NCBI RefSeq assembly: GCF_013376045.1
Contig: NZ_JABMJG010000004.1
Coordinates: forward strand, 186,001-250,000
Direction of reading: 5' to 3'
Source: Variovorax sp. SG517
GTDB lineage: Bacteria; Pseudomonadota; Gammaproteobacteria; Burkholderiales; Burkholderiaceae_C
Length of the DNA: 64,000 nt
The notes beneath the pieces are model-generated. The model ran no database searches. It saw only the letters and a list, made by a program, of their open reading frames with translations, and was not told the origin of the DNA. Shown piece by piece: positions 98-25,068 of the stretch (position 1 is its first letter; each line of letters starts with the position of its first letter). Position numbers and translations under genes: made by a program.

Positions 98-493
98 TTA
101 GGCGACGTAGCACAGAACTTCGCCGCCGACACCGGTAGCGCGAGCCTTGCGATCGGTCATCACGCCCTTGGGGGTCGTGACGATCGCAACGCCGAGGCCG
201 TTCTGGACTTGCGGGATGGCGGCGCTGGCCTTGTAGACGCGCAGGCCGGGGCGGCTCACGCGTTCGATACGTTCGATGACCGGGCGGCCAGCGTAGTACT
301 TCAGCGTGATGACGAGCTCGGACTTGCCGGCATCGGTCTTGACTTCGAAACCGTCGATGTAGCCCTCGTCCTTCAGGACTTGTGCAATCGCAGCCTTCAC
401 CTTGGAAGACGGGATCGACACAGTGGGCTTCGCCACCATCTGCGCGTTGCGGATACGCGTCAGCAGGTCGGCAATGGGATCACTCATGCTCAT
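98..493 (-). CDS. rpsH: 30S ribosomal protein S8
   Basis: A 131-residue protein starting [18 protein letters not shown], the standard S8 N-terminus, and ending [11 protein letters not shown], the standard C-terminus. S8 binds helix 21 of 16S rRNA as a primary assembly protein. In E. coli it also represses spc-operon translation by binding rplE mRNA; whether that control exists here cannot be read from sequence. The open frame extends upstream into the spacer, but family length and the MSMSDP start place initiation at 493. It lies 20 bases after rpsN and 24 before rplF in the same operon. Confidence 0.97.
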
Positions 494-513
494 GTTGTTT
501 GCTCCTGCCTGGC

Positions 514-819
514 TTACCAGCTGGCCTTGGTGACACCGGGGATGTCGCCGTTGAAAGCCAGTTCGCGGATCTTGGCGCGGGCCAGACCGAATTGACGGAA
601 GGTGCCACGGGGGCGACCGGTGATTTCGCAACGGTTGCGCTGACGCGTGGGGTTCGCGTTGCGCGGCAGCTTCTGCAGCGCCAGGCGTGCAGCAGCGCGC
701 TCTTCTTCGGTCTTCTTCAGGTCGTTGGAGGCTGCCTTCAGTTCGGCGTGCTTCGCTGCGAACTTGGCAACCAGCTTGTCGCGCTTGAGTTCGCGCTGGA
801 TCAAAGATGCTTTAGCCAC
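514..819 (-). CDS. rpsN: 30S ribosomal protein S14
   Basis: A 101-residue protein ([17 protein letters not shown]...) of the long S14 class. It has no pair of CxxC motifs, so it is the zinc-independent form typical of proteobacteria. The conserved block [20 protein letters not shown] sits in the second half, and the protein ends with ASW. S14 is a late-assembling protein of the 30S head. It sits 8 bases after rplE and is co-oriented with the rest of the spc operon. Confidence 0.97.
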
Positions 820-827
820 AGGTCACC

Positions 828-1367
828 TCAGTTCTTGAACGGGAAACGGAAGCCAGCGAGAAGCGCCTTGGCTTCTTCGTCGGTCTTGGCCGTCGTCGTG
901 ATGCTGATATTGAGACCGCGCAGGGCATCGACCTTGTCGTACTCGATCTCGGGGAAAATGATCTGTTCCTTGACGCCGATGTTGTAGTTGCCACGGCCAT
1001 CGAAAGCACGGCCGGAGATACCACGGAAGTCGCGAACGCGCGGCAGCGCGATGGTCACGAAGCGGTCCAGGAATTCGTACATGTGCACGCCACGCAGCGT
1101 GACCATGCAGCCGATCGGCTGGTTTTCGCGGATCTTGAAGCCGGCGATGGCCTTCTTCGACTTGGTGACCACGGGCTTCTGGCCGGCGATCTTGGTCAGG
1201 TCGGCAACGGCGTTGTCGAGGACCTTCTTGTCGGCGACTGCTTCACCCACACCCATGTTGAGCGTGATCTTGGTGAGGCGCGGGACCTGCATCGGCGACG
1301 TGTAGCCGAACTTTTCCGTCAGGTCTTTCGCGATCTTTTCGCGATAGTGTTGTTGGAGACGTGCCAT
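828..1367 (-). CDS. rplE: 50S ribosomal protein L5
   Basis: A 179-residue protein starting [20 protein letters not shown], the usual length and N-terminus of bacterial L5. L5 binds 5S rRNA and contacts the P-site tRNA in the central protuberance. Recognisable blocks are [14 protein letters not shown] near residue 30 and the C-terminal [20 protein letters not shown]. It lies 11 bases after rplX. In E. coli the start of this gene is the S8 repression site; a comparable site was not resolved here. Confidence 0.97.
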
Positions 1368-1378
1368 GTGAGTACCTC

Positions 1379-1711
1379 TTAGGCGAACTTGATTTCTTCG
1401 CCGCTCGACTTGAACACGCGAACAGCCACGCGCTTGCCGTCAGCATCCTGGGTGACCTTGACGCCCACGCGATCGGCCTTGCCGGTCGCGGCGTTGAAGA
1501 TCGCCACGTTGGATTGGTGAATCGGCATGGCCTTCTCGACGATGCCACCGGTCGTACCCTTCAGGGGGTTCGGCTTGGTGTGCTTCTTGACGAGGTTGAT
1601 GCCTTCAATGACCACGTGCGAGTCATCCTTGCGCAGCGAGACGGTGCCCCGCTTGCCCTTGTCGCGGCCGGCCAACACGATGACCTGGTCGCCCTTGCGA
1701 ATCTTGTTCAT
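1379..1711 (-). CDS. rplX: 50S ribosomal protein L24
   Basis: A 110-residue KOW-domain protein. [20 protein letters not shown] is the KOW motif at the N-terminus, followed by [17 protein letters not shown] and a basic C-terminal half. L24 is an early assembly protein contacting 23S domain I near the exit tunnel. It lies 12 bases downstream of rplN, and the length is close to the usual 103-110 residues. Confidence 0.96.
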
Positions 1712-7505: not shown

Positions 7506-8744
7506 TCACGGCCGGGCGGCCTGCGCAGCGGGCATCGGGCGCGCGCCGGACCGCAGGCGCCGTCCGCGCGCGATGCCCGGCTTCTCGACCAGCCGGTAGC
7601 TCGCGACCGATGCCGCCGCCAGCAGCAGGGCGCAGCCCGCGCCCACCAACCAGTAGGCCGTCGGCCCCGACATCGCGAACGCCCTCACCGGCGGCACCGC
7701 GAACACCAGGGTCAGCACGAGCCCCTGGAGCAGGTAGATGCTGTAGCTCACCGTGCTCATGCGCCGGGCCGCGCGCGTGCCCAGCAGGCCGAAGAGCGTG
7801 CTGCCCGTGCACACCAGGTGGAAGAACACCCAGAGCAGCAGCACCTGCACGGGGCCGACCATGTGCCCGAAACCGAGGAACACCCCCGCGAGGCAAGCCA
7901 GCGCAAGCAGCGACGCCTCCCGCTGCGGCAGCCGCGGCCCCTTGCGACGGACCAGCCACGCCGACAGCATGCCCATGAGGAAGGACGCCAGCACCCAGGC
8001 CAGCGCGCCGATCACCAGCGCGAGCGTCGGCCGCGAGGGCGTGGCCCCCGGCGACAGCGCCCCGAAGACCAGCAGCGGCAGGCACACCAGCAGCATGCCG
8101 CCGATAACGAAGCGCGGCGTGCGGGCCCCGCGCGCGAGCGGGGCCATCGGCCGCAGCGCGCCGTAGAACAGCCACTCCACGAACACCGTCCAGGTGACGC
8201 CCGCGAGGATCAGCGTCGTGCCCACGTAGCCGTTGATGTCCGGCTGAAGCGGCCAGATGCCGAGGGCCAGCCACTGCAGCACCTCGGCCAGCACGGACCA
8301 CGCCGGCTCCCTGAGCTCGAAGCCGGTTCTCCAGCCGACGACGAGGAACATCAGCCCCACGGCCAGCAGATAGGTCGGCCCGATGCGCCAGAGCCGGCCG
8401 GTGTACAGCCCCCTCCAATCGGGCCGCCCTTTCGCGTCGAGCAGCTTTCCCCAGAACAGGAAGGCGGTGATCATGAAGAAGACGCCCACGCCTGCCTGCC
8501 CCAGCAGGGTGTGGAAGCCCGAGGGCGGAAAGGTCCACTCGCCGCGCTCGATGTAGCCGTGGGTCACCATCAGGTGGTGCACGAAGACGCTCAGCGCGAG
8601 AAAGCCGCGCAGCCCGTCGAGCGTTGCGGTGCGGCGGTCGCGGGCGTCGTGCGGCTCGTCGGCAGCGCGGAACACCGGCAGCGCCATCGCACCGAGCACC
8701 ACCAGCACGAGCACGAAGTACGGCCAGGGCGAGAAGACGCTCAT
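7506..8744 (-). CDS. Acyltransferase family 3 membrane protein of the NRPS cluster
   Basis: A 412-residue polytopic membrane protein with the acyltransferase-3 signature: TATLDGLRGFLALSVFVHHL (catalytic-type His in the first core helix), GVGVFFMITAFLFWGKLL and YTGRLWRIGPTYLLAV. About ten hydrophobic segments follow. Members of this family O-acetylate or O-acylate sugars, lipids or peptides at the inner membrane. It is the last gene of the minus-strand operon and its ATG overlaps the stop of the small ORF before it (ATGA). The natural inference is that it acylates the glycosylated NRPS product, but the acceptor is unknown. It could also be an unrelated surface-polysaccharide acyltransferase. 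Confidence 0.82.
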   Translation of the reverse strand: MSVFSPWPYFVLVLVVLGAMALPVFRAADEPHDARDRRTATLDGLRGFLALSVFVHHLMVTHGYIERGEWTFPPSGFHTLLGQAGVGVFFMITAFLFWGKLLDAKGRPDWRGLYTGRLWRIGPTYLLAVGLMFLVVGWRTGFELREPAWSVLAEVLQWLALGIWPLQPDINGYVGTTLILAGVTWTVFVEWLFYGALRPMAPLARGARTPRFVIGGMLLVCLPLLVFGALSPGATPSRPTLALVIGALAWVLASFLMGMLSAWLVRRKGPRLPQREASLLALACLAGVFLGFGHMVGPVQVLLLWVFFHLVCTGSTLFGLLGTRAARRMSTVSYSIYLLQGLVLTLVFAVPPVRAFAMSGPTAYWLVGAGCALLLAAASVASYRLVEKPGIARGRRLRSGARPMPAAQAARP

Positions 8745-8914
8745 CGCCGTTGCGGCCTGCCTTGCCGCCGCGGTCTTTCCTGCCTTCCCTGCGCCGGCAC
8801 TGCGCGCTCTTGCCGGTCGCCGGGAGCGACGCTCACCTCATCGGCGACCGACGTGCGGAACCGCGACGCATACGCCCAGGCGGCGCCGCGCCGGTGCAGC
8901 GCGAACACCCTCAT
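8741..8914 (-). CDS. Small 57-residue ORF coupled to mbtH and the acyltransferase
   Basis: The ORF fits exactly between two genes. Its ATG (8914-8912) overlaps the mbtH stop and its TGA (8743-8741) overlaps the acyltransferase start, both as ATGA. The protein begins MRVFALHRRGAAWAYASRFR and its C-terminal half is rich in Arg and Gln, ending RRQGRPQRR. It has no membrane segment and no family I recognise. The precise coupling at both ends suggests translation really passes through it. The basic low-complexity tail could equally be the by-product of a GC-rich spacer. Confidence 0.45.
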   Translation of the reverse strand: MRVFALHRRGAAWAYASRFRTSVADEVSVAPGDRQERAVPAQGRQERPRRQGRPQRR

Positions 8915-9132
8915 GCGCCTGCGGCATCGAGATCCCTGGCCGCGAGCGAGCGCGGGCGCATGTCGGTCCAGTTCGCCTCGATGTAGGCGCCGCACGTGGC
9001 GCGGTCGGTGGCGGGCAGCGCCACCTTCCAGCCGGCGGGCACGTCGATGAAAGCCGGCCACAGCGAGTGCTGGCCTTCGTCGTTCACCAGCACCTGGAAG
9101 GTGCCGTCCTTGTCGTCAAACAGGTTGCTCAT
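8911..9132 (-). CDS. MbtH-like NRPS accessory protein
   Basis: A 73-residue protein, MSNLFDDKDGTFQVLVNDEGQ, with the family pattern QHSLWPAFIDVPAGWKVAL (invariant NxExQ...SLWP...PxGW) and the second half CGAYIEANWTDMRPRSL. MbtH proteins bind the N-terminal subdomain of adenylation domains and are often needed for their activity. It lies 36 bases after the glycosyltransferase and overlaps the next small ORF. Its place in the operon argues that at least one of the two adenylation domains of the NRPS depends on it. Confidence 0.95.
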   Translation of the reverse strand: MSNLFDDKDGTFQVLVNDEGQHSLWPAFIDVPAGWKVALPATDRATCGAYIEANWTDMRPRSLAARDLDAAGA

Positions 9133-9168
9133 CGTCTGTTTCCTCGGGGGTTCTTCAATCGGGCCGGG

Positions 9169-10491
9169 TCAGGCCATGGCCAGGGATTCGGGCACCGCGG
9201 CCTCGCGCAGCGCCTCGAGCGCGGCCGATATCTCGGTGAGCGCGTGATGGCGCGCGAAGTCGTCGCGCAGCACGCCCGCGCGCTGGCGGTAGGCGGGCTC
9301 CTTCAGCAGCCTGCGCACCGCGTCGCCGATCTGGCGCGCGGTGGGCTGCCCGTTGCCCAGGTTGATGCCGGCGCCCGACCAGGCTACGCGCGCGGCAATC
9401 TCCGGCTTCTCCTCGGTGGCGCCGGCCACCACCAGCGGCACGCCGAGGCTCAGCGCATGGTTGACCGAGCCGTAGCCGCCATTGGTGACCATCGCGTGCA
9501 CCTTCGGCAGCAGGCGGTCGTAGGGCAGGAAGGGCAGCACGCGCGCATTCGCAGGCACCGCCATGTTCAGCGCCTCGGGCTGCGGTCCGCCCGTGGTCGC
9601 AATGACCTGGATGTCGCCCGCGCCGGCCAGGCCCTGCAGCGTCGGGCCGATCAGTTGCGCCGGGTTCTGGTTGGCCAGCGTGCCCTGCGTCACCAGCACC
9701 ACCGCGCGGCCGTCGTCCAGCTCGTGCCACCAGTCGGGCTCCACGAAGTCGCGGCTGGCGGGCGCGAGCAGCGGGCCCACGAAGCGCACCGAAGCCGGCA
9801 GGTCGCTGCGCGGGTATTCGAAGGATTCGGAAGTGAGCTGCAGGTAGACGTCCGGCAGCTTCACCATCGCGTCGATGAAGAACTCGGGCAGCGCCGGCAG
9901 GCCCGCGCAGGTCAGCAGCGCATCGAAGTAGCGCTGCACCTCGCCGAACATCGCCTGCCTGAGATTGGCGTTCATCGCGCGGTTGCGCACCCGCCCTTCC
10001 GGCGTGGACGACGGCGGCAGCGCGGTGCCGAAGAAGGCGGTGTCGCAGCTCGACAGCGGCAGCGCCGAGATGCCGATGCCCACGACGGCAGGGCGCTCCT
10101 CGCGCGGCCCCAGCAGCAGCGGGAAGGTGCCGCAGAACATGGTGTCGACCATGACGGCATCGGCCGGGAAGTCGCCCAGGATCGCGCGCAGGCCCCTGTG
10201 CTGCGCCGCCATGGCGTCGGCGAAGAAATGCTTCAGGCCGAAGCACAGCTGCGCATGCGCCGACGGCAGGCGCTGGCGCTGCGGAAAGCGCTGGTCGAGC
10301 TCGCGGTGGTCGAAGTCGATCGAGGCGTCGAAGGGCGTGAAGCCGGCGCCGGTGGCCTCGGCCTGTGCCCGGAAGCGGCTGGCCGTGTGCACCCGCACCT
10401 CGTGCCCCAGGCCCACGAGGTGCTGCGCGATGGCCAGCATCGGCAGCACGTGTCCCGGCAGCGGCGTCGCGGCGATGAGATAGCGCGCCAT
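9169..10491 (-). CDS. UGT/MGT-family glycosyltransferase of the NRPS cluster
   Basis: A 440-residue GT-B enzyme. The N-terminus MARYLIAATPLPGHVLPMLA is typical of UGT/rhamnosyltransferase-type proteins (acceptor domain). The C-terminal nucleotide-sugar domain has AVVLVTQGTLANQNP and HAMVTNGGYGSVNHALSLGV, the HxGxGS-like donor motif with TNGGYGS in place of the first residues. It probably transfers a sugar to a hydroxyl of a hydrophobic acceptor. Four bases separate its ATG from the NRPS stop, so translation is closely coupled and the acceptor is most likely the NRPS product. The sugar donor cannot be read from sequence. Confidence 0.87.
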   Translation of the reverse strand: MARYLIAATPLPGHVLPMLAIAQHLVGLGHEVRVHTASRFRAQAEATGAGFTPFDASIDFDHRELDQRFPQRQRLPSAHAQLCFGLKHFFADAMAAQHRGLRAILGDFPADAVMVDTMFCGTFPLLLGPREERPAVVGIGISALPLSSCDTAFFGTALPPSSTPEGRVRNRAMNANLRQAMFGEVQRYFDALLTCAGLPALPEFFIDAMVKLPDVYLQLTSESFEYPRSDLPASVRFVGPLLAPASRDFVEPDWWHELDDGRAVVLVTQGTLANQNPAQLIGPTLQGLAGAGDIQVIATTGGPQPEALNMAVPANARVLPFLPYDRLLPKVHAMVTNGGYGSVNHALSLGVPLVVAGATEEKPEIAARVAWSGAGINLGNGQPTARQIGDAVRRLLKEPAYRQRAGVLRDDFARHHALTEISAALEALREAAVPESLAMA

Positions 10492-10495
10492 GGCT

Positions 10496-13400
10496 TCAGG
10501 CCTCCTGCGATGCGCCGGCTTCGGCGGTGCGGCGCGCCTTGGTGTCGATGCCCAGGTCGACGAAGTAGCGATGCAGCAGGTCGCGGTCCACCGGGCGGAT
10601 CGCGGCACCGATGGCCTGCAGCTGCGCATGCGTGGCCTCGCCGCTCACCTTCGGCGGCGTGGCCGAGGTGTCGTAGCGGTCGAGGATCGCCAGCACCGCC
10701 GCGAGGTCGCGGTCCTGCCCCACAGCGAGCCGCGCGTGCGCGCGCTGCAGCCACGGTTCGAGCCCGACGGGTTCGAGCCGCATGCCGAGCCGCTCGAACA
10801 CGGCCGGAATGTCGCGCACCCGCAGCGCCTCCTGGCTCGTCAGGTGGAACACCTGGCCCCACGACGACTGCAGCCCCGCGAGGCCGAGGATCGCGCGCGC
10901 CACGTCGTCCACCGGCGTGAGGTTCAGCGGCAGGTCCATGTCGGGAATGGCTTCGAGGTCGGCATAGAGATGCGCCACGCGCCAGATCAGGTCGTCGGCG
11001 TTGCAGATCGCGTGCGTGTGGTCGCCGGTGACCGCGCCCAGCCGGTAGATCGCCACCGGCATGCCGCGCGACTGCGCCTCGCGCGCCAGCGCGTCGCCTA
11101 CCCACTTGCTCTGGCTGTAGCCGTCGACCAGCCCGCGCCACGAGGCCAGCGCCGACTGCTCGGTGACGGTGGCGCCTTCCTTGCCGTTGTTCTGGTCGAT
11201 CACCGCCAGCGTGGAGACGTAATGCATGCTCTTCGGCCGGCCCTGCGCGGTCCACTCGAGCAGCGTGACCACGCTGCCGACATTGGCCGGCTTCAGGCTC
11301 GCGTAGGGATGCAGGAAGTCCACCTGCGCGGCGCAGTGGTAGATGGCGTCGCAGTCCTCGCGCACCAGCTGCACCGCGCGGTCGTCCAGGCCCAGGTTCG
11401 GCTTGCCGAGGTCGCCGGTCACGACCTCGATGCGCGCGTCGTCCCAGATCGCGCCGAGCTGCCGCTGCGCCAGCGTGAGCTGCAGGCGGCGCTTGCCGGC
11501 TTCCTCGTCGACGGCACGCACGTGGCAGACCACGCGAGCGGTGGTGTCGCGCAGCAGCGCGGCCAGCAGGTGGCTGCCGACGAAGCCGCTGGCGCCGGTG
11601 AGAAACACGCGCTGCGGGGCCAGCGGCGGCGCGGTGTCCTGCCTGCGGATGTGCGCGGGCAGGTCGAGCTCGCGCGAGAGGTCCAGCGCCTCGGCGCCGG
11701 CCGTGTTGTCGTCCAGCCATGCGGCCAGCGCCGCGACGGTCGGGCGGTTGTAGACCTCGGCATGCGGGAAGTCCGCGCGCACCTGCTGGCGGATGCGCAT
11801 GCCGAGCTGGATCGCCATCAGCGAATGCCCGCCGAGTTCGAAGAAGTTGTCGTGGATGCCCACGCGCTCCAGGTGCAGCGTCTCGGCCCACAGCGCGGCA
11901 AGCTGCCTCTCGGTGGCGGTGCGCGGCTCGACATATGCCGAGGTGGCCTGCTGCTCCGGCGCGGGCAGCGCCCTGCGGTCGAGCTTGCCGCTTTGCGTCA
12001 ACGGCAGGAACGGCAGGTGCACGAAGGCCGAAGGCACCATGTAGTCGGGCAGCGACTGCGCCATGTGGGCGCACAGTTCCGCGGGCTGCGGATCGGACGA
12101 CGCCACCACGTAGGCCACCAGGCGCTTCTCGCCCGGCACGTCCTCGCGCGCGATGACGGCCGCCTGCGTCACCTGCGGATGGCGCAGCAGCACCGATTCG
12201 ATCTCGCCGGGCTCGATGCGGTAGCCGCGGATCTTCACCTGCTGGTCGGCGCGGCCCAGGAAGTCGAGGCTGCCGTCATTGCGCCAGCGCACCAGGTCGC
12301 CGCTGCGGTACATGCGGCTGCCGGGCTCGCCGAAGGGATCGGCGACGAAGCGCTCGGCGCTCAGCAGCGCGCGGTTCAGGTAGCCGCGCGCGACGCCGCT
12401 GCCCGCGATGTAGAGCTCGCCCGCCACGCCGGGCGGCACCGGCTGCAGCGCGTCGTCGAGCACGTACACGCGCGTGTTCCACACCGGCGTGCCGATGGTG
12501 GGCGGCTCCTGGCCGTTGATCGGCGCGCTGGTGCTCGCGCAGATGGTGATCTCGGTCGGGCCGTAGGCGTTGACCATGCGGCGGCCCCTGGACCAGCGCG
12601 CAGCCAGTTCGGCGGAGCAGGCATCGCCGCCCACCACCACCGTCTGCAGGCAGGGGTAAGCGCCCTCGGGCAGCGTCGCGAGCGCGGCCGGCGGAATCAG
12701 CGCGTGGCTCACGGCCAGCCTCTCGATCAGCACGCCGAGCTCGGCGCCCAGCACCTGCTGCGCCGAGGGCACCACCAGCGCGCCGCCGGCATGGAAGGCC
12801 ATCAGCAGGTCCATCACCGAGGCGTCGAAGCCGCTGGAGGAGAACTGCAGCACGCGCGAGCCGTGGTCGATGGCGAAGCGCTGCGCCATCGAGGCGCCCA
12901 GGCTTGCCAGGCCCTGGTGCGGCACCACCACGCCCTTGGGCTTGCCGGTGGAGCCCGAGGTGTAGATCACGTACGCGGCGTCGCGCGGATCGACCGCGCG
13001 CGGCTGCGCCACGGGCCCGTCCGACTGGATCGCCAGCGCGGCGACGGTCTCGTCGCTGTCGAGCGCGAGGCAGCGCGCAATGCCGGCCAGCTCCGGCAGC
13101 AGCGACGCGTGCGTCAGCACCGCGGCAGGCGCAGCCTCCTCGAACACGAAGGCGCTGCGGCCGGCCATGTGGTTGGGGTCGATCGGCAGGTAGGCCGCGC
13201 CGGCCTTCACGATGGCCAGGTGCGCCACCACGAGGTCGAGCGAACGCGGCAGCACGGTCGCGACGATGTGGCCCGCGCCCACGCCGCGGCCGCGCAGCAG
13301 GTGCGCGAGCCGGTTGGCGCGCACGTCGAGCGCGGCATAGCTCACCACCGAGGCGTCGTCGAGCACCACCGCCGCCTCATGCGGGCGCGCGGCGGCGTGC

Positions 13401-16400
13401 GCCTCGACCATGGCCGCGAGCGAGAGCGGCGCGATGTCGTCTCGCGTGCCGCTGCTGCGGCCGCTCCAGTCGTGCAGCAGCCGATGGCGCTCTTCTTCGC
13501 CGAGGATGTCCAGGCCGTTCAGCGCGGCATCGGGGGCATCGCAGGCCTGCTCCAGCAGGCGCACCAGCCGCTGGCCGATGGCCTCGACGGTCGGGCGGTC
13601 GAAGATGTCGGTGCTGTACTGGATGCCGCCCGCGATGCCGCCGGGCAGCCCGTCGGCGCCGCGCTGCTCGTCGAGGATGAAGGACAGGTCGAACTTGGCC
13701 GTGTCCACCTCCACCGGCTGCGGCGTGATCGACAGGCCCGGCAGCCCGAAGGAGAGCCGGTTGCTGCCGCTCTGGAAGCCCAGCATCACCTGGAACAGCG
13801 GCAGGTTCGCGCCGCCGCGCTGCGGACGCAGCAGCTCCACGATGCGGTCGTACGGGAACTCCTGGTTCGCATAGGCCGCGAGGTTGGTGGCGCGCACCCG
13901 TGCGACCAGCTCGCGCAGGCTGGGCTGCCCTGCCAGGTCGGTGCGCAGCACGAGCGCGTTGACGAAGCAGCCGATGAGCTCGTCCAGCGCGTGGTCGCTG
14001 CGGCCTGCCACCGGCGTTCCGATGACGATGTCGTCTCCCGCGCCCAGCCGGTTGAGCAGCCCCGCGAGCGCCGCCTGCAGCACCATGAAGACGCTGGCCT
14101 GCCCATCGCGTGCGAGCTGCAGCATGCGCTCGTGCACCTGCGGCGGAATCTGCAGCGGCACCACGTCGCCGCGGTAGCTCGGCACGGCCGGGTGTGGGCG
14201 GTCGACCGGCAGGCTCAGCCGCTCGGGCAGGTCGCGCAGGGTCTCGCGCCAGAACTCGCGTTGGCGGCCGGCCATGCTCTCGGGGTCGTCCTCGCTGCCC
14301 AGCAGTTCCTGCTGCCACAGCGCGTAGTCGGCGTACTGCAGCGGCAGCGGCGCCCAGCCCGGCGCCTTGCCTTCGCTGCGCGCGGCGTAGGCCACGCTGA
14401 GGTCGCGCGCCAGCGGCAGCAGCGAGGCGCCGTCGCCCACGATGTGGTGCGTGAGCAGCAGCAGCACGTGCTCGTCGTCGGCCAGCCTGAAGAGATGCGG
14501 GCGCAGCGGCGCGGTGGTGCCGAGGTCGAAGCCGGCGCGCGCGGCGGCATGCAATTGCGCGGCGATCCCGTCCTCGCTGCTGTCGGCCGCGACCAGCAAT
14601 GCGCGCGCCTGCTCGCCTTCGAGGATGTGCTGGTACGGCAGCCCGTCCTCGCTCGGGTAGATGGTGCGCAGGCTCTCGTGGCGCTGCATCAGGTCGTCGA
14701 TCGCCGACTGCAGGGCGGCGCGGTCGAGCGTGCCCGACAGGCGCAGCGCCAGCGGCATGTTGTAGGCGGGGTTGGCGTTCTCCAGCTGGTTCATCAGCCA
14801 CAGGCGGCGCTGCGCGAACGACAGCGGGATGCGCGCCGGCCGCGGCATCGGCACGAGGCTCGGCCCCGCCTGCGAGGCCTGATCGAGCAGCTCGGCGAGG
14901 CCGGCGATGGTGGAGACCTGGAACAGCGTGTCCAGCGGCAGGTCGATCATGAACTGCTGCCGGATCATCGAGATCAGCTGCACGATCATCAGCGAGTGCC
15001 CGCCGAGCTCGAAGAAGTTGTCCTCGATGCCCACGCGCGGCAGGTGCAGCGTCTCGGCCCAGAGACGCGCGAGGATCTTCTCGGTGTGCGTGCGCGGCGC
15101 CACGTAGGGCGTGGCCGCCTGCAGCTCGGGCGCGGGCAGCGCGCGCCGGTCGAGCTTGCCGCTGGGGCCCAGCGGCAGCGCCGGCACGTTGACGAAGGCC
15201 GAGGGCACCATGTACTCGGGCAGCGACTGCGCGAGATGGGTGCGCAGATCGGCCGCCTGCGGATCGGCTCCCTCGGCGGCCACCACGTAGGCCACGAGGC
15301 GCTTCTCGCCCGGCACGTCTTCCCGCGCGACCACCGCCGCCTGCGCGACCTGCGCATGCTGCAGCAGCGCTGATTCGATCTCGCCGGGCTCGATGCGCAG
15401 GCCGCGGATCTTCACCTGCTGGTCGGCGCGGCCCAGGAAGTCGAGGCTGCCGTCCTCGCGCCAGCGCGCGAGGTCGCCGGTGCGGTACATGCGGCTGCCG
15501 GGCTCGCCGTAGGGGTTGGCCACGAAGCGCTCGGCGCTCAGCAGCGGACGGCCGAGGTAGCCGCGCGCGAGGCCCACGCCCGCGATGTAGAGCTCGCCAG
15601 TGGTGCCGGGCGGCACGGGCTGCAGGCCGCTGTCGAGCACGTGCATCTGCGTGTTCCAGATCGGCCTGCCGATGGGCACGCTGCCCTTCGGAGCCTGTCC
15701 CTCGTCGGCATCGCGCGGGCATTCCCACGAGGTGACGTCGACGGCGGCCTCGGTCGGCCCGTAGAGGTTGTGCAGCTCGCAGGGCAGCTGCTGCTGGAAC
15801 TGCGCCACCAGCGCGGGCGACAGCGCCTCGCCGCTGCAGATCACGCGCCGCACCGAGGCGCACTCGCGCGCCTTCGGCTCGAGCAGGAACACTTCGAGCA
15901 TCGACGGCACGAAGTGCGCGGTGGTGATGCCTTCATCGGCGATCAGCTTCGCGAGGTAGGCGGCGTCCTTGTGGCCGCCGGGCTTCGCGAGCACCAGCGT
16001 GGCGCCGTCGATCAGCGGCCAGAAGAATTCCCACACCGACACGTCGAAGCTCGATGGCGTCTTCTGCAGCACGCGGTCGTCGGCCTTCAGGCGGTAGCGG
16101 TCCTGCATCCACTGCAGGCGGTTGACGATGGCGCGGTGCGACACCACCGCGCCCTTGGGCCTGCCGGTGGAGCCGGAGGTGTAGATCACGTAGGCCGGAT
16201 GCGAGGGGTCGATGGCGATGCCGTGATCAGCGTCATCGCAATTCGCCAGGTCCGCAAACGTTTGCCCTACATCGAGCAGAAGGGCTGGGGCGCCCGCCTG
16301 CAGCGACTCCGCGAGCGCAGCGGTGGTGACGAGGCACGCCGGCTGCGCGTCGTCGAGCATGAAGGCGATGCGGTCCTGCGGGAAGTCGGGGTCGACGGGC

Positions 16401-18016
16401 AGGTAGGCCGCGCCGGTCTTCAGCGTGGCGAGCAGCGCCACCATGAGGTCGAACGAACGCGGAATGGCCAGCGCCACGGTGCGCTCCGGCCCCGCGCCGC
16501 GCGCGCGCAGCAGGTGCGCGAGGCGGTTGGCGCGGCGGTTCAGCTCGTCGTTGCTCATGGCGTCGCCCTCGAAGCGCAGCGCCACGCCTTGCGGATTGGC
16601 CGCAAGCTGCGCCTCGATCAGCGCGACGAGATTCGTATCGGGCACCGCGTGCGCCGTGTCGTTCCACGTCACCAGCAGCTGCTCGCGCTCTCCGGGCTGC
16701 AGCAGGTCGACGTGGCCGATGGCCTGGTCGGGCTCGGCGATCACGGCGGTCATGAAGGCCAGCAGCCGGCGCTGGTGGGCGGCGAGTTCCTGCGCGGTGT
16801 AGATCGCCGGATTGGCGTCGAAGTCGATCTGCAGGTCCTGCCCGTTGCCGCGCTCGTACAAGAAGATGCCCAGGTCCTCGGCCGTGCCGTTCGACAGGTT
16901 GCGCGGCTTCGCCTTGCTGCCTGCAAAGCGGAAGTCGTAGTCGAAGGGCTCGACGTTGACCACCGTGGTGAAGAGCTGCCGGTTGTTCACCAGCATGTTG
17001 AGGTCGCTGCGCAGGTGCTCGTAGCGGTAGGACTGGTGCCGCAGCACCTGCCGCATCTGGCGGCCCACTTCGTTGATGAGTTCCGGCACGCGCAGGTCGG
17101 CGCGCATCGCGAGGCGCAGCGGCAGCGCGTTGGCCACCATCGCGGGCACGCGGCGCATGCGGTCGTTGTGGCGCGCGGTGACGGGAATGCCGATCACCAT
17201 GTCCTCGATGCCGGTGGCGCGGTACAGGTAGGCGGCGGTGGTGGCGATCAGGATCTGCGGCAGCGTGGTGCCCAGCTGCTGCGCGATGTCGGCCAGCGCG
17301 TGCACGCTTTCGGCCGGCAGGTGCGCGGTCTGCCGCAGCAGGCCGCCGACGTTGACCGAGCGCTGCGAGGCCAGGCTCAGCGGATCGGGCGCGTCGGCGA
17401 AGCGTTCGCTCCAGTACTGGCGGTCGCGCGGGAAGCGGCCCGACTCGCGGTACGCCTTCTCTTCCTCGGCCAGCTGCGAGATGGGCGCGAGGCGCGAGGC
17501 CTCGGGCACCTCGGTGCCTTCGATGCGCGCGGTGTAGACGTCGGCGAAGCGCCGCGCGATGAGACCGCCACCGAAGCCGTCGAGCACGATGTGATGGCTG
17601 CGGTGGTACCAGACGTGGCGCTCCGGCGCGAGGCGGATCAGCGCGGACAACCACAGCTGGTCGCGCGCGAGGTCGTCCTTGCGCGTGAAGTCGGCCTGCA
17701 TCCACGCCTGCGCCGCGGCGGCCGGATCCGCCTCGCCGCTGAAGTCGAGAAAGGGCATCTCGCGCGTGAAGTCGGGCGCGACCACCTGCCGCGGGCCCTG
17801 CGCGGTGTCGACGAAGCTCAGCCGCGTGGCCTCGGCTTCCCCGGTCACCTGCCGCATCGCGGCCATGAAGACGTCCGCGTCGATGGGGCCTTCGATGTCG
17901 ATGGCTTCGGCGAGATTGAAGTTGGTGTCGGGCGAGGCGAACCTGGCGCCGAGCCACATCGCCATCTGGCCCGAAGTGAGGACAGATGCGCCACCCTGAG
18001 GGTCGACCGTGCTCAT
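10496..18016 (-). CDS. Dimodular NRPS with terminal thioester reductase domain
   Basis: A 2506-residue synthetase. Domain order and landmarks: starter-type condensation domain (HHIVLDG, residues 141-147); adenylation 1 ([11 protein letters not shown], 612-622); thiolation 1 (LGGHS, Ser about 1008); condensation 2 (HHIVGDG, 1190-1196); adenylation 2 ([11 protein letters not shown], 1685-1695); thiolation 2 (Ser about 2065); and an NAD(P)-binding reductase (GASGFVG 2141-2147, YSQSK 2300-2304). The A1 specificity residues read D-V-W-H-I-S-L-V-D-K, very close to serine codes such as EntF. A2 reads D-A-M-L-V-G-A-I-C-K, which I cannot assign. An initial condensation domain without a preceding A-T suggests an acyl donor from outside (lipo-initiation). 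The reductase would release an aldehyde or alcohol. The ATG at 18016 matches the start of the condensation domain. Confidence 0.95.
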
Positions 18017-18309: not shown

Positions 18310-19308
18310 TCAGCGCTTCTCGAAATACGGAATGAAGATGCCGTTGGCGGCCGTGCCCACTTGCTTGACCCAGTTCAGCGAAAAGTTCTCGCCCAGGCGC
18401 TGCAGGTCGCGCCCGAGCAGGAAGGGCACCGGCTCGATCTTCATGCCGTTGCGCCGCAGTTCGTCCGTCGAGCGGGCCGCGGCCTCGGTGCTGCGGGCCC
18501 ATCCGCGCGTCTCGGCGACCGCGCACGCGGCGGCCAGCGAGTTGCGCGACGACGGGTCGAGCCCGTCCCACGCCTTGGCGTTGACGAACACGAGGTTCTT
18601 CGGGAACCACGCGTTGATCTCGTAGAAGTGGCGCATCGACTGCCACGCCTGGTTTTCCACGCCGGTCACGGCGGAGGTCAGCATGCAGTCGATGCGGCCT
18701 TCGGCCAGCGCCTTGCCAAGGCCGGTGGCCGGAACGTCGACAGGCACCGCGCCCATCAGCGTCGCGATGCGCGCGGTGGTGTCGTTGTAGGCGCGCATGC
18801 GCATGCCGCGCAGGTCGCCCACGCCGCCGAGCGGCCGCGTCGAGAAGAGGCCCTGCGGCGGCCACGCCACCGCATAGAGCACGCGCAGGCCGCGCTGCGC
18901 GAAGTCCTGCTCGATCAGCGGACGCTGGATGCGCCACAGCAATTGCGCGTCGGTATAGCTGCGCGTGATGAAGGGAACGGAATCGGCGCCCGCCAGCGGC
19001 ACGTCGGCCGCGAGGCTGCTCATGATGGCTTCGCCGGCCTCGACCTTGCCCTCCTGCACCGCCGCGCGAATCGCGTTCAGCGCAAACAGCGTGTTGCCAG
19101 GATGGACCTCGATGCGAAGCTGCCCGCCGGTCGCGGCCTCCACCTCCTTCGCCATCGCCAGCAGGTTGGCGGTGTGGAAGTTCTCCGCCGGGTAGCCGGT
19201 GGCCAGCCGCCACACGACGGCCTGCGCCGACCACGCGGCCGACGGGAGGACGCCGGCCCCGCATGCCAGCCATGCGAAGCCGCGCCGCGTGATGCTGCCG
19301 CTGGTCAT
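18310..19308 (-). CDS. TRAP-type periplasmic solute-binding protein (DctP family), orphan
   Basis: A 332-residue exported protein. The N-terminus has a Tat-like SITRRGFAWLACGAG signal. The body has the DctP features YPAENFHTANLLAMAKEVEAATGG, VHPGNTLFALNAIRAAVQEG and GLRVLYAVAWPPQGLF...LRGMRMRAYNDTT. Such proteins deliver organic acids to DctQM permeases. No dctQ or dctM lies next to it. It is the last gene of the oxoproline operon, 11 bases after the biotin-carboxylase gene. It may serve a permease elsewhere, or act as a sensor or scavenger of the operon's substrate. Confidence 0.85.
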   Translation of the reverse strand: MTSGSITRRGFAWLACGAGVLPSAAWSAQAVVWRLATGYPAENFHTANLLAMAKEVEAATGGQLRIEVHPGNTLFALNAIRAAVQEGKVEAGEAIMSSLAADVPLAGADSVPFITRSYTDAQLLWRIQRPLIEQDFAQRGLRVLYAVAWPPQGLFSTRPLGGVGDLRGMRMRAYNDTTARIATLMGAVPVDVPATGLGKALAEGRIDCMLTSAVTGVENQAWQSMRHFYEINAWFPKNLVFVNAKAWDGLDPSSRNSLAAACAVAETRGWARSTEAAARSTDELRRNGMKIEPVPFLLGRDLQRLGENFSLNWVKQVGTAANGIFIPYFEKR

Positions 19309-19319
19309 GCCGCTGCCTT

Positions 19320-21050
19320 TCAGGCGATGGTCGCAATGGCGGCGCCGACCGCCACGTAGCCGCCTGCGGCCACCGAGAAGGCGATGCGCCCCGCGCGATG
19401 CGCGAGCACCTGCATCTCCATCTTCATCGCCTCCATCACCGCGATGACTGTGCCCTCGGCGACCTCGTCACCGTCGGCCACCTTCCATGCCTGCACCGTG
19501 CCCGAGACGGGCGCGGCCACCGCGGCTGCATCCGCTGCGGGTGCCTGCGACGCGGGGGCCGCCACGGCACCACCGGCCGCCGACGAGAGTCCGCTCAGCA
19601 GCACCGCCGGCAGGCCCAGCGCCATGCGCCGCCCGTCGACCTCGATCGCCGTGCGCAGCAGCGCGGCGTCGGGCAGCGGATCGGGGCGCAGGGCCGGCGC
19701 CTCGCAGTTGGCGAAGTCGGTCTCGATCCAGCGCGTGTGCACCTTGAAGGCGTCGCCCGAGACGAAGTCCGGGTGCGCCATCGCCGCGCGATGGAAGGGC
19801 AGCACCGTCGGCAGGCCCTCGACGCGGAACTCCTTCAGCGCACGCCGCGCACGCGCGATGGCCTGCTCGCGCGTGGCGCCGGTGACGATGAGCTTGGCCA
19901 TCAGCGAATCGAAGGTGCCCGGCACCTGCGAGCCCGCCTCCACGCCGGCATCGACGCGCACGCCGGGCCCCGAGGGTGCGTCGAACACCTTCACCGGCCC
20001 GGGCGAGGGCAGGAAGCCGCGACCCACGTCCTCGGCGTTGATGCGGAACTCGAAGGCATGGCCGCGCGGCGCGGGCGTCTGCGTGACGCGCAGCGGCAGG
20101 CCCTCGGCGATGCGCAGCTGCTCGATCACGAGGTCGATGCCCGTGGTTTCCTCCGTCACCGGATGCTCCACCTGCAGCCGCGTGTTCACCTCGAGGAAAG
20201 AGATCGCGCCGCTCGCGCTCAGCATGAACTCGACCGTGCCGGCGCCCGTGTAGCCGGCTTCCGCGCAGATGTCGCGTGCCGACTGGTGGATGCGCTCGCG
20301 CTGCGCGTCGCTCAGGAAGGGCGCGGGCGCCTCTTCCACCAGCTTCTGGTTGCGCCGCTGCAGCGAGCAGTCGCGCGTGCCGAGCACGACCACGTTGCCG
20401 TGCGTGTCGGCTAGCACCTGCGCCTCGACGTGGCGTGGGCGGTCGAGGAACTGCTCGACATAGCATTCGCCGCGTCCAAAGGCCGTTACTGCCTCGCGCA
20501 CTGCCGATTCGTAGAGGCCCTCGACTTCGTCGAGCCGCCACGCCACCTTGATGCCGCGCCCGCCGCCGCCGAAGGCCGCCTTGATCGCGACCGGCAGCCC
20601 GTGCTTCTCCGCGAAGGCGAGCACTTCGCCCGCATCCTTCACCGGATCGGCCGTGCCCGCCACCAGCGGTGCGCCGACCTTCATCGCGAGCTTGCGGGCC
20701 TGCACCTTGTCGCCCAGCATCGCGATGGCGGCCGGCGGCGGGCCGATCCAGGTGAGGCCGGCGTCGATGACGGCCTGCGCGAAGGCCGCGCTTTCCGACA
20801 GGAAGCCATAGCCCGGATGCACCGCGTCGGCGCCGCTGCGCGCGGCCACGTCGAGCAGCTTGGCGATGTTGAGGTAGGTGTCGGCGGGCTTGTTGCCGTC
20901 GAGTCCGTATGCCTCGTCGGCCATGCGCGCATGCAGCGCATTCAGGTCGGCGTCGGCATACACGGCGACGGATTTCACGCCGTGGTCGGTACAGGCGCGC
21001 GCGATGCGCACGGCGATTTCGCCCCGGTTGGCGATCAGTACTTTCTTCAT
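19320..21050 (-). CDS. Biotin carboxylase with C-terminal biotinyl (BCCP) domain
   Basis: A 576-residue protein. The ATP-grasp biotin carboxylase half ([54 protein letters not shown]) is followed by an Ala/Pro-rich linker (about 480-505) and a biotin-attachment domain with EAMKME near residue 542. It would carboxylate its own biotin with ATP and bicarbonate. No carboxyltransferase subunit is nearby. It lies 10 bases after the fused pxpBC gene, so it may work with PxpBC, whose domains resemble the allophanate-hydrolase/urea-carboxylase partner. The usual alternatives, acetyl- or propionyl-CoA carboxylase alpha subunits, would need a partner elsewhere. Confidence 0.9.
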
Positions 21051-21060
21051 GGGGAGGCTT

Positions 21061-22632
21061 TCACTGGGCCATGGGCCTGAATCGGACGCGCGCGTTCACG
21101 GGGATCTGCCCCGCGCGGTCCAGGTGATGGGTGGCGACGGAGGCGATCACGGGATAGCCGCCCGTCAGCGGATGGTCGGCCAGGAACAGCACGGGCTGGC
21201 CGCTCGCAGGCACCTGGATCGAGCCGCGCGCGGTGCCCTCGCTGGGCAGCTCGGCATGGTTGGCGCGCTGCAGCGCCTGCTCGCCGGCCAGGCGAATGCC
21301 GACGCGGTTCGACTGCGGCGTGACGGCCCATGCCTGGCCGCAGAGCAGCTCGACCGCGTCGGGCGTGAACCAGTCGGTGCGCGGGCCGAGCACGATGTCG
21401 AGCACCACTTCCTCGTGCACGGTGGGCAGGCCGGCCGGCGGCGACTCGGGCTCGCCGACCAGCGCACCGGCGGACACCGTGCGCACGGGCAGCAGGTCGC
21501 CCGCGGCGAGGGCGGCGGGGCCGACGCGCGCGAGCGTGTCGGTCGAGAGGCTGCCGAGCACGGGCGCGATGTCGAAGCCGCCGCGCACCGCGATGTAGCT
21601 GCGGATTCCGGCCGGCGGCTCGCCGAGCGCGAGCACGTCGCCATCGGCCAGCGCGATGGGCTGGTAGCGCGGCAGCGGCCACCGGGCGCCATCGGTGCGG
21701 GTCAGCGTGACCGGAGCTTCAGCGCCGGTGACCGCCACCACCGCATCGCCACGGCAGGCGAGCTGGAAGCCGCCGTAGGCGACCTCGATGCACGCAGCAT
21801 CGGAGGCATTGCCGACGAGCCTGTTGGCAGCCTGCAGCGAGCGCCGGTCCATCGCGCCGGAAGCCGACACGCCCTGCTTCGCCTGGCCGTGGCGGCCGCC
21901 GTCCTGCAGCAGCGACTGCAGGCCCGGGGCGCGGATCTCCAGGGCGCAGCCGCTCTTCGGCACGGCCGGTTGCGCCGGCGCGGCGGCGGCCTTCAGCTCC
22001 GCGCGCGGTTGGCCGGTCACATCGACGAAGCGCACAGCATCGCCAGGCTGCAGCAGCGCGGGCGTCTCGCGCGAGAGGTCCCACATCGGTGCATCGGTGA
22101 TGCCGAGGATCTGCCAGCCGCCCGGGCTGGCCTGCGGATAGACGCCGCTGAAGCTGCCCGCGAGCCCGACGGCGCCGGCGGGAATGCGCGTGCGCGGCAC
22201 CTTGCGGCGCGGCACGTTCAGGCTCGGGTGCCCGCCCGAGAGGTACGCGAAGCCCGGCGCGAAACCGGTGAAGGCGACGGTGTAGTCGCTGCCGGTGTGG
22301 CGGCGCACGACTTCATCGGGCGTGATGCCGAGCAGGCCGGCCACCTCGGCCAGGTCCTCGCCGTCGTAGCGCACGGGAATCTCGATGCGCCTTTCGCTGC
22401 GCGCCTCGCTTGCGTCGAGGCTGCGCGCGCCGACCTGCCGCGCGAGCTCGTCGGCTGAAATTGCGGCCGGCCTGAAGGTGATGAGCAGCGTGCGCGCCGC
22501 GGGCACCAGCTCCTCGATGCCCGCGATGGGTTCGGCGCGCAGCGAGGCCAGCAGCGCGAGGGTCTGCGGCAGGTCTTCGAGCTCGACCAGCACCGCATTC
22601 AGGTTGACCGGCAGGAAGCGCATCGTCGTCAT
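21061..22632 (-). CDS. 5-oxoprolinase subunits B and C, fused (PxpB-PxpC)
   Basis: A 523-residue fusion. Residues 1-210 are the PxpB/KipI (allophanate hydrolase subunit 1) domain, with [18 protein letters not shown] and [19 protein letters not shown]. From about 225 it is the PxpC/KipA (subunit 2) domain, with [40 protein letters not shown] and the C-terminal [20 protein letters not shown]. With PxpA it forms the prokaryotic ATP-dependent 5-oxoprolinase that opens L-pyroglutamate to glutamate. The ATG at 22632 overlaps the pxpA stop (ATGA). Split pxpB and pxpC genes are common elsewhere, so the fusion is worth noting. Confidence 0.92.
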
Positions 22633-23393
22633 GCGGCGTCCACGAAGGAGCGGATCGCCACGCCCGACTGCTTCAGCAGCGCGCGCACACGGCGCGCCAT
22701 CTCCACCGCGCCGGGGCTGTCGCCGTGCACGCAGACCGACTCGGCCTCGATGCGCACGGTGCTGCCGTCGATGGCCGTGACCACGCCTTCGGAAGCCAGC
22801 CGCAGCATGCGCGCGGCCACTTCCTCGGCGTCGTGCAGCACCGCGCCGGGTTCGCGGCGCGACACCAGCGTGCCCCTGGGCGTGTAGGCGCGGTCGGCGA
22901 AGGCCTCGGCCACCACGCGCAGGCCTGCGTCGCGCGCCCAGCCGATCAGCGGCGAGCCCGCGAGCGCCACCAGCACCAGGCTGGCATCGATCTCGCGGAT
23001 GGCGGCGATCACGTCGCGCGCCTGGCGCTCGTCGTGGGCGATGGTGTTGTAGAGCGCGCCGTGCGGCTTCACGTAGCGCACCGTGGTGCCGGCCGCGGCG
23101 GCCAGGCCCTTGAGCGCACCGATCTGGTAGATCACGTCGGCGCGCAGGTCGGCGCTCTCCACGTCCATGTTGCGGCGCCCGAAGCCCACGAGGTCGCGGT
23201 AGGCCACGTGCGCGCCGATGGCCACGCCGCGCTCCTTCGCCTGGCGCAGCGTGCGCAGGATGCCGGCCGGGTCGCCGGCATGGAAGCCGCAGGCGACGTT
23301 GGCGCTGCTCACGAGGGAAAGCATGGCGGCGTCGTCGCCCATGCGCCATGCGCCCAGGCTCTCGCCGAGGTCGCTGTTCAAGTCGATGTTCAT
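22629..23393 (-). CDS. pxpA: 5-oxoprolinase subunit A (LamB/YcsF family)
   Basis: A 254-residue LamB/YcsF protein beginning [16 protein letters not shown], with [36 protein letters not shown] and [17 protein letters not shown]. These are the conserved blocks of PxpA, the subunit needed with PxpB/C for 5-oxoproline hydrolysis. It follows pcp by 22 bases and overlaps pxpBC. Pairing with a pyroglutamyl peptidase gives a simple route: the peptidase frees pyroglutamate and PxpABC converts it to glutamate. Confidence 0.95.
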
Positions 23394-23415
23394 CGTTCGG
23401 TCTTCAGTGAGTCGG

Positions 23416-24102
23416 TCAGTGGAGGCGGCCCGCCGTCTCCCGCACGTCGTCGCGCACGAGCAGCGCGGTGCGGATCGCCACGCGGAAGGCTTCCACCTGC
23501 GTCTGCAGCGCCATGCTCGCCACGCCGGGCTTGGAGGCGGCCTGTTCGGGCAGGTAGGGCACGTGGACGAAGCCGCCGCGCGTGTGCGCGAGCGCGGGCC
23601 GGGTCGCGAGCCGGTGCATCAGCGCATAGAAGATGTGGTTGCACACGAAGGTGCCGGCGCTGTTGGACACCGCCGCGGGCAGCCCGGCGGCGCGCATGTC
23701 GCGCACCATGGCCTTGATCGGCAGCGTCGAGAAGTAGGCGGCCGGCGCGCCGGGCACCACCTCGATGTCGATGGGCTGGTGGCCGGCGTTGTCGGGAATG
23801 CGCGCGTCGTCGACGTTCAGCGCGGCGCGCTCCAGCGAGATCTCGGTGCGCCCGCCCGCGGCGCCGATGCACAGCACCAGCGGCAGCGGCCTGCCGCTCT
23901 CCGCGATGCCGGCCATGGCGTCGTCGAGCACCTGGATCGAGCGGCCGAACACGCAGGGCAGCTGCAGCGCCTGCACCACGGTGCCTTCGCAGCGCCATCC
24001 GTCGAGCGCGCGGGCGATCTCCCACGCGGGGTTGACGGGATCGTTCTCGAACGGCTCGAAGCCCGCGACCAGCACCCGGGGCGCCTTGTCATCGGTGGTC
24101 AT
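23416..24102 (-). CDS. pcp: Pyroglutamyl-peptidase I
   Basis: A 228-residue cysteine peptidase (family C15) that removes N-terminal pyroglutamate from peptides in the cytosol. The N-terminal [19 protein letters not shown] is the family signature. The catalytic residues are visible: Glu in [11 protein letters not shown] (E91), Cys in [13 protein letters not shown] (C154) and His in [10 protein letters not shown] (H180). It sits between the DUF979 membrane gene (10 bases) and pxpA (22 bases), which supports its role at the head of the oxoproline pathway. Confidence 0.95.
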
Positions 24103-24111
24103 GCAGGGGCC

Positions 24112-25068
24112 TCAGCGGAACATCAGGAAGTACATCAGGAAGATGTTGACCACCAGCAGCGTGGCCGCGGTCGGTATCTGCACGCGGATCACCGCGTTCT
24201 TGTCGGGCAGCTCCAGCAGCGCCGCCGGCACGATGTTGAAGTTGGCCGCCATCGGCGTCATCAGCGTCCCGCAGTAGCCCGAGAACATGCCGATGGCCGC
24301 CATCACCGCGGGGTCGCCGTGGTACACGCCCACCAGCACCGGCACGCCCACGCCGCCCGTCATCACCGGGAAGGCCGCGAAGCCGTTGCCCATGATGATG
24401 GTGAAGAGCGCCATGCCCAGCACGTAGACCGCGACCGCGACGAAGCGGATGTCCATGTTGATGTAGCTGGTGGTGACGTACGCCACCGCCTTGCCCACGC
24501 CCGCGTCGGAGAACACGAGACCCAGCATGCCCAGCATCTGCGGCAGCACCACGGCCCAGCCCAGCGCGTCGGTCAGGCGGCGCGACTCGCGCATGCCCTG
24601 CACCGGCGTCTCGCGCGTCAGCCAGCAGGCCAGCGCCAGCGCCGCCACGCAGCCCACGCCCAGGCTCACCAGCGTGGTGTTCTTGGGATCGAGCAGGAAG
24701 GCGTCGCCGATCTTGACCTTGCTCACGAGCACCGTGCCGATCACGGTGACCAGCGGGATCGCCAGCGCCGGCATGAAGAGCTTGTTGCCCAGGCGCCTGG
24801 CGCTGGCCTCGTACTGGGCCGGCGTCGGCTCGTCGTGCTTGCCCGCGCCCACGCCGCGCAGGCCGGCGATGACGGCCATGGCGATGGCCCCCACGCCCAC
24901 CAGGGCCGGCGGCAGCTTGTCGCCGACCAGGAAGACCAGCGAATAGAGGCCCCAGAAGAGCGCGCTGGTGTAGCGCTTGGGATGCTGGCGGTCGGCCAGC
25001 GTCATGACCGCCGTGATCGCGAGGATCAGGCCGACAAGGATGTAGAGGTGCTGGATCGAGAGGATCAT
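24112..25068 (-). CDS. DUF979 family membrane protein
   Basis: A 318-residue polytopic protein with about nine hydrophobic segments (LYILVGLILAITAVMTL at the start, GCVAALALACWLT, GLVFSDAGVGKAVAYV, AVYVLGMALFTIIMGNGF). DUF979 genes are almost always paired with DUF969 and are often beside pcp. The pair probably forms a transporter for pyroglutamate or pyroglutamyl peptides; the substrate is an inference from this context. The ATG at 25068 starts two bases after the DUF969 stop, and a TTG at 25074 is an alternative. Confidence 0.85.
   Translation of the reverse strand: MILSIQHLYILVGLILAITAVMTLADRQHPKRYTSALFWGLYSLVFLVGDKLPPALVGVGAIAMAVIAGLRGVGAGKHDEPTPAQYEASARRLGNKLFMPALAIPLVTVIGTVLVSKVKIGDAFLLDPKNTTLVSLGVGCVAALALACWLTRETPVQGMRESRRLTDALGWAVVLPQMLGMLGLVFSDAGVGKAVAYVTTSYINMDIRFVAVAVYVLGMALFTIIMGNGFAAFPVMTGGVGVPVLVGVYHGDPAVMAAIGMFSGYCGTLMTPMAANFNIVPAALLELPDKNAVIRVQIPTAATLLVVNIFLMYFLMFR

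Follow-up and report, generated by a model that had tools for sequence, protein, structure and literature searches.

We identified, in a 64,000-nucleotide stretch of the Variovorax sp. SG517 genome (contig NZ_JABMJG010000004.1, positions 186,001 to 250,000; the window), a five-gene operon on the minus strand at 7506-18016. From its sequence we predict a secreted lipodipeptide alcohol that is glycosylated and most likely serves as a biosurfactant; the most likely product is an N-acyl-Ser-X-ol that bears rhamnose and is sometimes O-acylated. We give this reading a probability of roughly two in three. In the proposed pathway, a starter condensation (C) domain of a nonribosomal peptide synthetase (NRPS) would transfer a medium- or long-chain fatty acyl group (C10 or longer) to the amino group of Ser on module 1, and module 2 would attach one hydrophobic residue, X. 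The terminal reductase (R) domain would free N-acyl-Ser-X, most likely as a primary alcohol formed by four-electron reduction. A GT1-family glycosyltransferase (GT) would attach the first sugar to a free hydroxyl (the Ser side chain or the new alcohol), and an RhlC-like rhamnosyltransferase, encoded on another contig with a major facilitator superfamily (MFS) exporter, would attach L-rhamnose. An acyltransferase-3 family protein (AT3) would then O-acylate the sugar.

Operon layout and the NRPS

The first gene (10496..18016, minus strand as are all five) encodes an NRPS of 2506 amino acids with two Condensation, two AMP-binding, two PP-binding and one NAD_binding_4 domain by Pfam. Together with NCBIfam, these matches give the order starter C-A(Ser)-T-C-A(hydrophobic)-T-thioester reductase, where A and T are adenylation and thiolation domains. 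Four bases separate it from the gene for the GT (9169..10491, 440 amino acids, GT-B; Pfam EryCIII-like_C/UDPGT), and 36 bases lie between this gene and that of an MbtH-like protein (8911..9132, 73 amino acids; Pfam MbtH, 90.5 bits). Two 4-base ATGA overlaps then join mbtH to a 57-codon open reading frame (orf57; 8741..8914) and orf57 to the AT3 gene (7506..8744, 412 amino acids; Pfam Acyl_transf_3, 81.5 bits). O-acylation of a sugar is the probable role predicted for AT3. About 17 N-terminal codons of orf57 are conserved (MRxFALHRRGAAWAxAS) and the remainder is variable and Arg-rich. The conserved start recurs in the nine genus loci read in which AT3 follows mbtH, that of the window among them, and in three in which it does not. 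All coordinates given in the original prediction for these five frames, along with their order, gaps and overlaps, were confirmed, and Pfam bears out the C-A-T-C-A-T-reductase NRPS, UGT-type GT, MbtH and acyltransferase-3 assignments made there.

The first C domain (C1) is N-terminal, with no A-T ahead of it. Compared to solved structures it scores 319 bits against 7c1k, 211 against ObiF1, 207 against the CDA starter C, 149 against EntF, 119 against 1l5a (which we take to be VibH) and 81 against TycC. The second C domain (C2), an internal control within the same NRPS, scores 458 bits against 5u89, 333 against 7kvw and only 39 against 7c1k. The 7c1 entries are taken as the starter C of RzmA (rhizomide), from variants that differ at the residues mutated in PMC7804268. 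Because C1 and C2 rank oppositely against solved C domains, C1 is assigned as a lipo-initiating starter C and C2 is not, by similarity ranking rather than by a tree. Grouping of C1 with ordinary LCL domains, which the original prediction had named as a result that would speak against it, is not seen in this ranking (319 bits for 7c1k, 81 for TycC). We also considered an upstream module encoded elsewhere. This is unlikely, since C1 is a starter C and, at 31 related loci, the DNA examined ahead of C1 contains no match to an NRPS domain.

According to Zhong et al. (PMC7804268), R148 controls chain length in RzmA: Arg gives C2, shortening to Gly gives C8 or C10, added Y138A shifts the preference to C10-C12, and further changes lead to C12-C16. 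At RzmA positions 36/136/138/143/148 the residues are QQYMR in RzmA and EHSLG in window C1. Thus the gate of RzmA, with its C2 products, is Arg, in contrast to Gly in C1. Among 39 distinct genomes (54 NRPS sequences, 15 of which are second copies from the same genome), the gate position 148 is Gly in 36 and Ala in three, and position 138 is Ser in 26, Cys in two, Gly in seven and Val in four. By analogy with RzmA, the small gate residue (Gly or Ala) predicts a medium or long acyl chain (C10 or longer) throughout the family, with the caveat that Glu at position 36 is without counterpart in the accessible text of PMC7804268.

Specificity codes of the A domains were located by motif position rather than by a predictor, using GrsA/EntF numbering. 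The reading covered 21 of the 54 NRPS sequences; that of locus L083 could not be read by motif, and spurious sites in L037, L070 and L086 were disregarded. The first A domain (A1) has the code D-V-W-H-I-S-L-V-D, in which the fifth residue is I, V or F among relatives. It compares closely to the EntF code, and by this numbering is assigned to Ser. The code of the second A domain (A2), D-A-M-L-V-G-A-I-C, is identical in all 11 two-module sequences read; residue X is assigned as hydrophobic and no further. Among solved structures the R domain matches MxaA best (196 bits), with R domains of other enzymes matching lower, and inspection by eye shows the Tyr-Lys pair (YSQSK). As MxaA is a four-electron reductase that forms primary alcohols, release as a primary alcohol is most likely. 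The A1 code and the proximity of the R domain to MxaA support the earlier proposals of Ser on module 1 and reductive release.

The glycosyltransferase clade and an unlinked, probable tailoring pair

The predicted structure of the GT (AlphaFold, pLDDT 89) has a GT-B fold. The model matches the oleandomycin GT 2iya (Z 36.5), YjiC 7bov and YojK of B. subtilis, CalG1 and the kitacinnamycin GT in the PDB, with Z between 35.3 and 36.5. V. paradoxus 110B and V. guangxiensis have GTs 95% identical to that of the window, and one on a 2.48-Mb replicon of V. paradoxus VAI-C is 81% identical. In a scan of named genomes by GT alignment (best 80 of 369 relatives kept), an NRPS with reductase is directly upstream in 31/31 loci with GT identity of at least 60% (L062-L092). 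At 50% identity or less, a matching C or R domain lies within the DNA examined in 0/49 loci (L093-L141), several of which are short contigs where neighbor genes may be missed; one of these (L120) has an AMP-binding match only (28%). A sample of 299 genomes of the family yielded one more carrier (G362; GT 66% identical and preceded by an NRPS reductase), as well as three GTs of 41-45% identity with no NRPS in the 4.3 kb examined. Glycosylation, inferred in the original prediction, is thus supported by placement of the GT in an NRPS-linked clade.

Within the genus, the NRPS-GT-MbtH set is present in 25 of 100 sampled genomes, counting that of the window and excluding three weak GT matches (32-43% identity). 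Among these carriers, the NRPS is interrupted by a contig end in G029, and its frame is broken in G087. Given its recurrence in these 25 genomes and that of NRPS-GT in all 31 named-genome loci (GT identity at least 60%), the association of these genes is far beyond chance.

In several Variovorax relatives, the genes downstream of MbtH encode an RhlC-type GT2 protein and an MFS protein that resembles Tet(A). In the window genome the pair is unlinked: the RhlC-like gene is on another contig (C11:135990-136934; 82% identical), with an MFS gene that is 85% identical. The RhlC-like protein scores 162 bits against TIGR01556, under the cut-off of 200.55. Only two homologues (43% identical) were found outside the genus in 300 genomes of the order, and both sit in operons of the rhlA-rhlB-MFS-rhlC type (gene names by eye). 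The window genome also has an RmlC match above cut-off (263 bits) and three matches to the phosphopantetheinyl transferase (PPTase) family, so formation of dTDP-rhamnose and of the holo-enzyme is plausible.

The distribution of these genes over the 100 genus genomes (search thresholds 1e-50 and 1e-80) suggests a connection of the unlinked pair to the operon. The RhlC-like gene is found in 16/25 NRPS-GT carriers and in 1/75 other genomes (Fisher p 2.3e-11). When the count is limited to copies unlinked to the NRPS, the figures are 6/15 and 1/75 (p 5e-5). An MFS gene adjoins the RhlC-like gene at all seven unlinked loci read (six carriers and G099). AT3 is present in 13 genomes, all of them NRPS-GT carriers that have the RhlC-like gene (13/16 carriers with this gene and 0/9 without it; p 1e-4). 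In four of the 13 (G029, G058, G060 and G076) AT3 lies away from the NRPS (4/16 compared with 0/75; p 7e-4). This nesting of AT3 within RhlC-like within NRPS-GT suggests the order NRPS, GT, RhlC-like enzyme, acyltransferase, a suggestion weakened by shared ancestry. A nested profile, here with one exception (G099), is what is expected if AT3 acts on the sugar added by the RhlC-like enzyme, and acyltransfer looks like a late, optional step. One RhlC-like gene (L177; G059, C128:81967-82919) is split across two frames; AT3 is likewise absent from this genome, and the cause may be joint decay or sequencing error.

The original prediction had proposed an N-acyl-Ser-X aldehyde or alcohol, glycosylated and perhaps O-acylated. 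The starter-type C1, Ser code, R domain and GT clade all favor it, and the RhlC-like transferase and MFS exporter extend it by a second, unlinked part of the pathway.

Counter-evidence and rival explanations

Several observations weigh against the predicted product. The RhlC-like gene is missing from 9/25 carriers, so this enzyme is not needed for a product everywhere, and G099 (locus L179; genome 86% complete) has the RhlC-like/MFS pair without NRPS-GT. V. paradoxus NBRC 15149 (L073) is an example with NRPS-GT-MbtH and no RhlC-like gene. The GT tree needs six changes for the three label groups, where shuffled labels need 9.9 on average (six or fewer in 2/200), and a single clade is made up by five of the six carriers whose RhlC-like gene is unlinked. 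As the genomes share ancestry, the Fisher p values overstate the case. A control with the neighboring gene dctP gave 6/25 carriers and 10/75 other genomes at 1e-110 (p 0.22), and 6/25 and 3/75 at identity of at least 70% (p 0.007). The latter excess arises largely because five of the six copies sit at the cluster's own locus. We consider this control only partly clean, and lowered our confidence slightly. The structural relatives of the GT include UDP-Glc and dTDP-sugar enzymes alike, and so fit either type of donor. The window GT is also only 26% identical (over 423 amino acids) to an RhlB-type protein in L168, too little to call it an RhlB orthologue.

Release could instead occur after two electrons, giving a glycosylated lipopeptide aldehyde that acts as a protease inhibitor or signal rather than as a surfactant alcohol. 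R domains can stop at the aldehyde stage, and those of other enzymes match the window's R domain too, at lower scores. However, the nearest solved R domain is that of MxaA (196 bits), a four-electron enzyme that forms primary alcohols, and the amphiphile-like tailoring (two sugars and an exporter) suits an end product. We therefore regard aldehyde release as unlikely, if the least so of the three rivals. Somewhat less probable is a role of the GT and MFS protein in self-protection, with a toxic lipopeptide being glycosylated and so inactivated within the cell, in the way that OleI inactivates oleandomycin, and the secreted product being free of sugar. The predicted fold of the GT is indeed nearest to macrolide-type GTs (2iya, Z 36.5), the MFS protein resembles Tet(A)-type drug exporters (with scores under their cut-offs), and, among the flanking frames that were annotated, L076 has an upstream gene for a Glyco_hydro_100/GDE_C protein, of which L077 encodes a homologue. 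Yet no sugar-removing enzyme was recognized as recurrent across the family among the flanking frames annotated, and the RhlC-like transferase and the acyltransferase, which share the profile, are unneeded for self-protection.

The NRPS might also make an aryl-capped siderophore or signal similar to those of EntF and MxcG, with C1 taking a 2,3-dihydroxybenzoate-like acid from an aryl carrier protein encoded elsewhere. The A1 Ser code is close to the EntF code, and the NCBIfam MxcG and EntF models match the NRPS with 1572 and 1162 bits. These scores, however, are far under the equivalog cut-offs of 2300 and 2400, the score of C1 to the rhizomide starter C is twice that to EntF, and Pfam found no aryl-acid or TonB-receptor gene among the neighbors at window positions 4857-25904, the part of the genome that was searched. 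We consider such a product improbable, and more so than the other two alternatives. Regarding the protein with Glyco_hydro_100 and GDE_C matches, its gene (L076:83-1279) is on the opposite strand upstream of the cluster, and that of the L077 homologue extends from 3366 onward.

Relatives, known systems and neighboring genes

The 31 loci are from Variovorax, Collimonas silvisoli, Paracidovorax, Acidovorax, Bradyrhizobium, Inquilinus and Tahibacter. The GT of Collimonas (Oxalobacteraceae) is 82% identical to that of the window despite the placement of Variovorax in another family (Comamonadaceae), which points to horizontal transfer. Seventeen loci encode two-module NRPSs, 13 encode one-module forms, and one is interrupted by a contig end. 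In a tree of 21 A domains from 15 sequences (16 of the 54 NRPS sequences were entered; L083 gave no domain and L086 gave one), the A1 (Ser) side includes the lone A domains from four Paracidovorax, Acidovorax SUPP3334 and two Inquilinus, whereas Bradyrhizobium BTAi1 has its lone A domain in the A2 clade (100/100). Because of this split, there appear to be two kinds of one-module line, with at least two separate gains, losses or fusions. Their products would be glycosides of N-acyl-serinol or of N-acyl-X-ol. The 13 one-module forms include that of Variovorax sp. CF313 (L043/L065), which we treat as a probable assembly artefact rather than a true one-module line: the NRPS frame ends at 863 amino acids and the A domain is an A1/A2 chimera, probably from a collapsed repeat in the draft assembly.

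Gene order differs in the alphaproteobacterial relatives, where LuxI, LuxR, HlyD, resistance-nodulation-division (RND) pump, PPTase and AT3 identities are from Pfam on single examples. In Bradyrhizobium (L083 and L087) the order is LuxR, LuxI, MbtH, NRPS, GT, HlyD and RND pump. In Inquilinus it is LuxR, MbtH, NRPS and GT, followed by an RND pump in L085, L089 and L090; L088 is a short contig. Inquilinus L085 and L089 also encode, downstream, an RhlC-like protein and an MFS protein, so that the pair is near NRPS-GT in two genomes of this genus (40-54% identical). The L085 RhlC-like protein had no match in Pfam. The LuxI and LuxR genes upstream of mbtH-NRPS-GT in the two Bradyrhizobium suggest control of the product by quorum sensing. 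We found no evidence that this LuxI is BraI, and the identity is not claimed. These one-module and quorum-sensing-linked relatives lie beyond what the original prediction had considered. A broader proposal, to which we give about even odds, is a proteobacterial family of 'glyco-lipoaminoalcohols' (alpha-, beta- and gamma-) defined by a starter-C NRPS with reductase and a dedicated GT1 clade. Its members would have one or two modules, LuxR or LuxI/LuxR linkage in the alphaproteobacteria, and nested tailoring by GT, RhlC-like enzyme and acyltransferase, and in Variovorax the product may be the swarming wetting agent.

Mycobacterial glycopeptidolipids (genes mps1/mps2, mbtH, gtf1-3 and atf) have a Phe-aThr-Ala-alaninol peptide made by four modules with reductive release. 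By gene set, the predicted product resembles these compounds but is not one of them. By prediction, the shared features are a reductive NRPS forming an N-acyl peptidyl alcohol, MbtH, glycosyltransferases and a sugar O-acyltransferase, the last in only 13/25 Variovorax carriers. Unlike the glycopeptidolipid enzymes, the Variovorax NRPS has two modules rather than four and no epimerization domains (its only Condensation-family domains are C1 and C2), its peptide would be Ser and X, the operon is without methyltransferases, and the hosts are Proteobacteria.

The rhamnolipid operons (rhlA-rhlB-MFS-rhlC) may share an RhlC-family second transferase (43% identical to the rhlC-operon proteins of two Burkholderiales genomes) accompanied by an MFS exporter. 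However, we identified no RhlA acyltransferase in the Variovorax operon or the checked neighbors, the lipid part is instead an NRPS product, and the MFS protein is Tet(A)-like, compared with EmrB-like (by eye) in both rhl operons. The rhizomide and holrhizin NRPSs (RzmA and HolA) have the same kind of starter C, and the small gate residue is as in HolA (A149); in contrast to these, the Variovorax line is short, with reductive release and glycosylation. MxcG (myxochelin synthetase), which also ends in a reductase, and EntF have a C-A-T head that is similar along its whole length. The differences are scores under the family cut-offs, a starter C nearer to the rhizomide type, the second module and glycosylation.

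No described product of this gene set was present among the literature matches listed, with subscription journals and MIBiG outside the scope. The wetting agent of swarming V. paradoxus EPS was called chemically uncharacterized in 2009 (PMC2704215). If the proposed product is correct, Proteobacteria would have their own counterpart of the mycobacterial glycopeptidolipids, one that combines rhizomide-type initiation with rhamnolipid-type glycosylation, a soap-like type of molecule apparently common to several unrelated Proteobacteria. The predictions are concrete (chain length, Ser, sugars, and the mass lost with each gene knock-out). The identity of the V. paradoxus wetting agent becomes directly testable, provided that the cluster is present in a swarming strain. 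Co-occurrence, as in the nested profile here, can also serve to recover the parts of a split pathway.

Adjacent to the cluster on the minus strand (window 18310-25904) are genes for a DctP-type binding protein, a biotin carboxylase-like protein, a carboxyltransferase-domain protein, LamB_YcsF, pyroglutamyl peptidase and DUF979/DUF969, in what looks like an operon for pyroglutamate or amide utilization. We rejected this 5-oxoprolinase-type operon and the flanking oxyR-dps-ubiA as cluster parts, as they adjoin the cluster only in close relatives. A downstream reading frame of 1035-1041 amino acids that is common at Variovorax loci was also dropped, since by eye it reads as part of a xanthine dehydrogenase operon. 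The same genome (G000 contigs C2, C3, C6 and C8) encodes 16 NRPS condensation domains in addition to C1 and C2. At window positions 1-1400, where G+C is lower (0.61), are genes for the ribosomal proteins S8 and L5 (by eye from translations).

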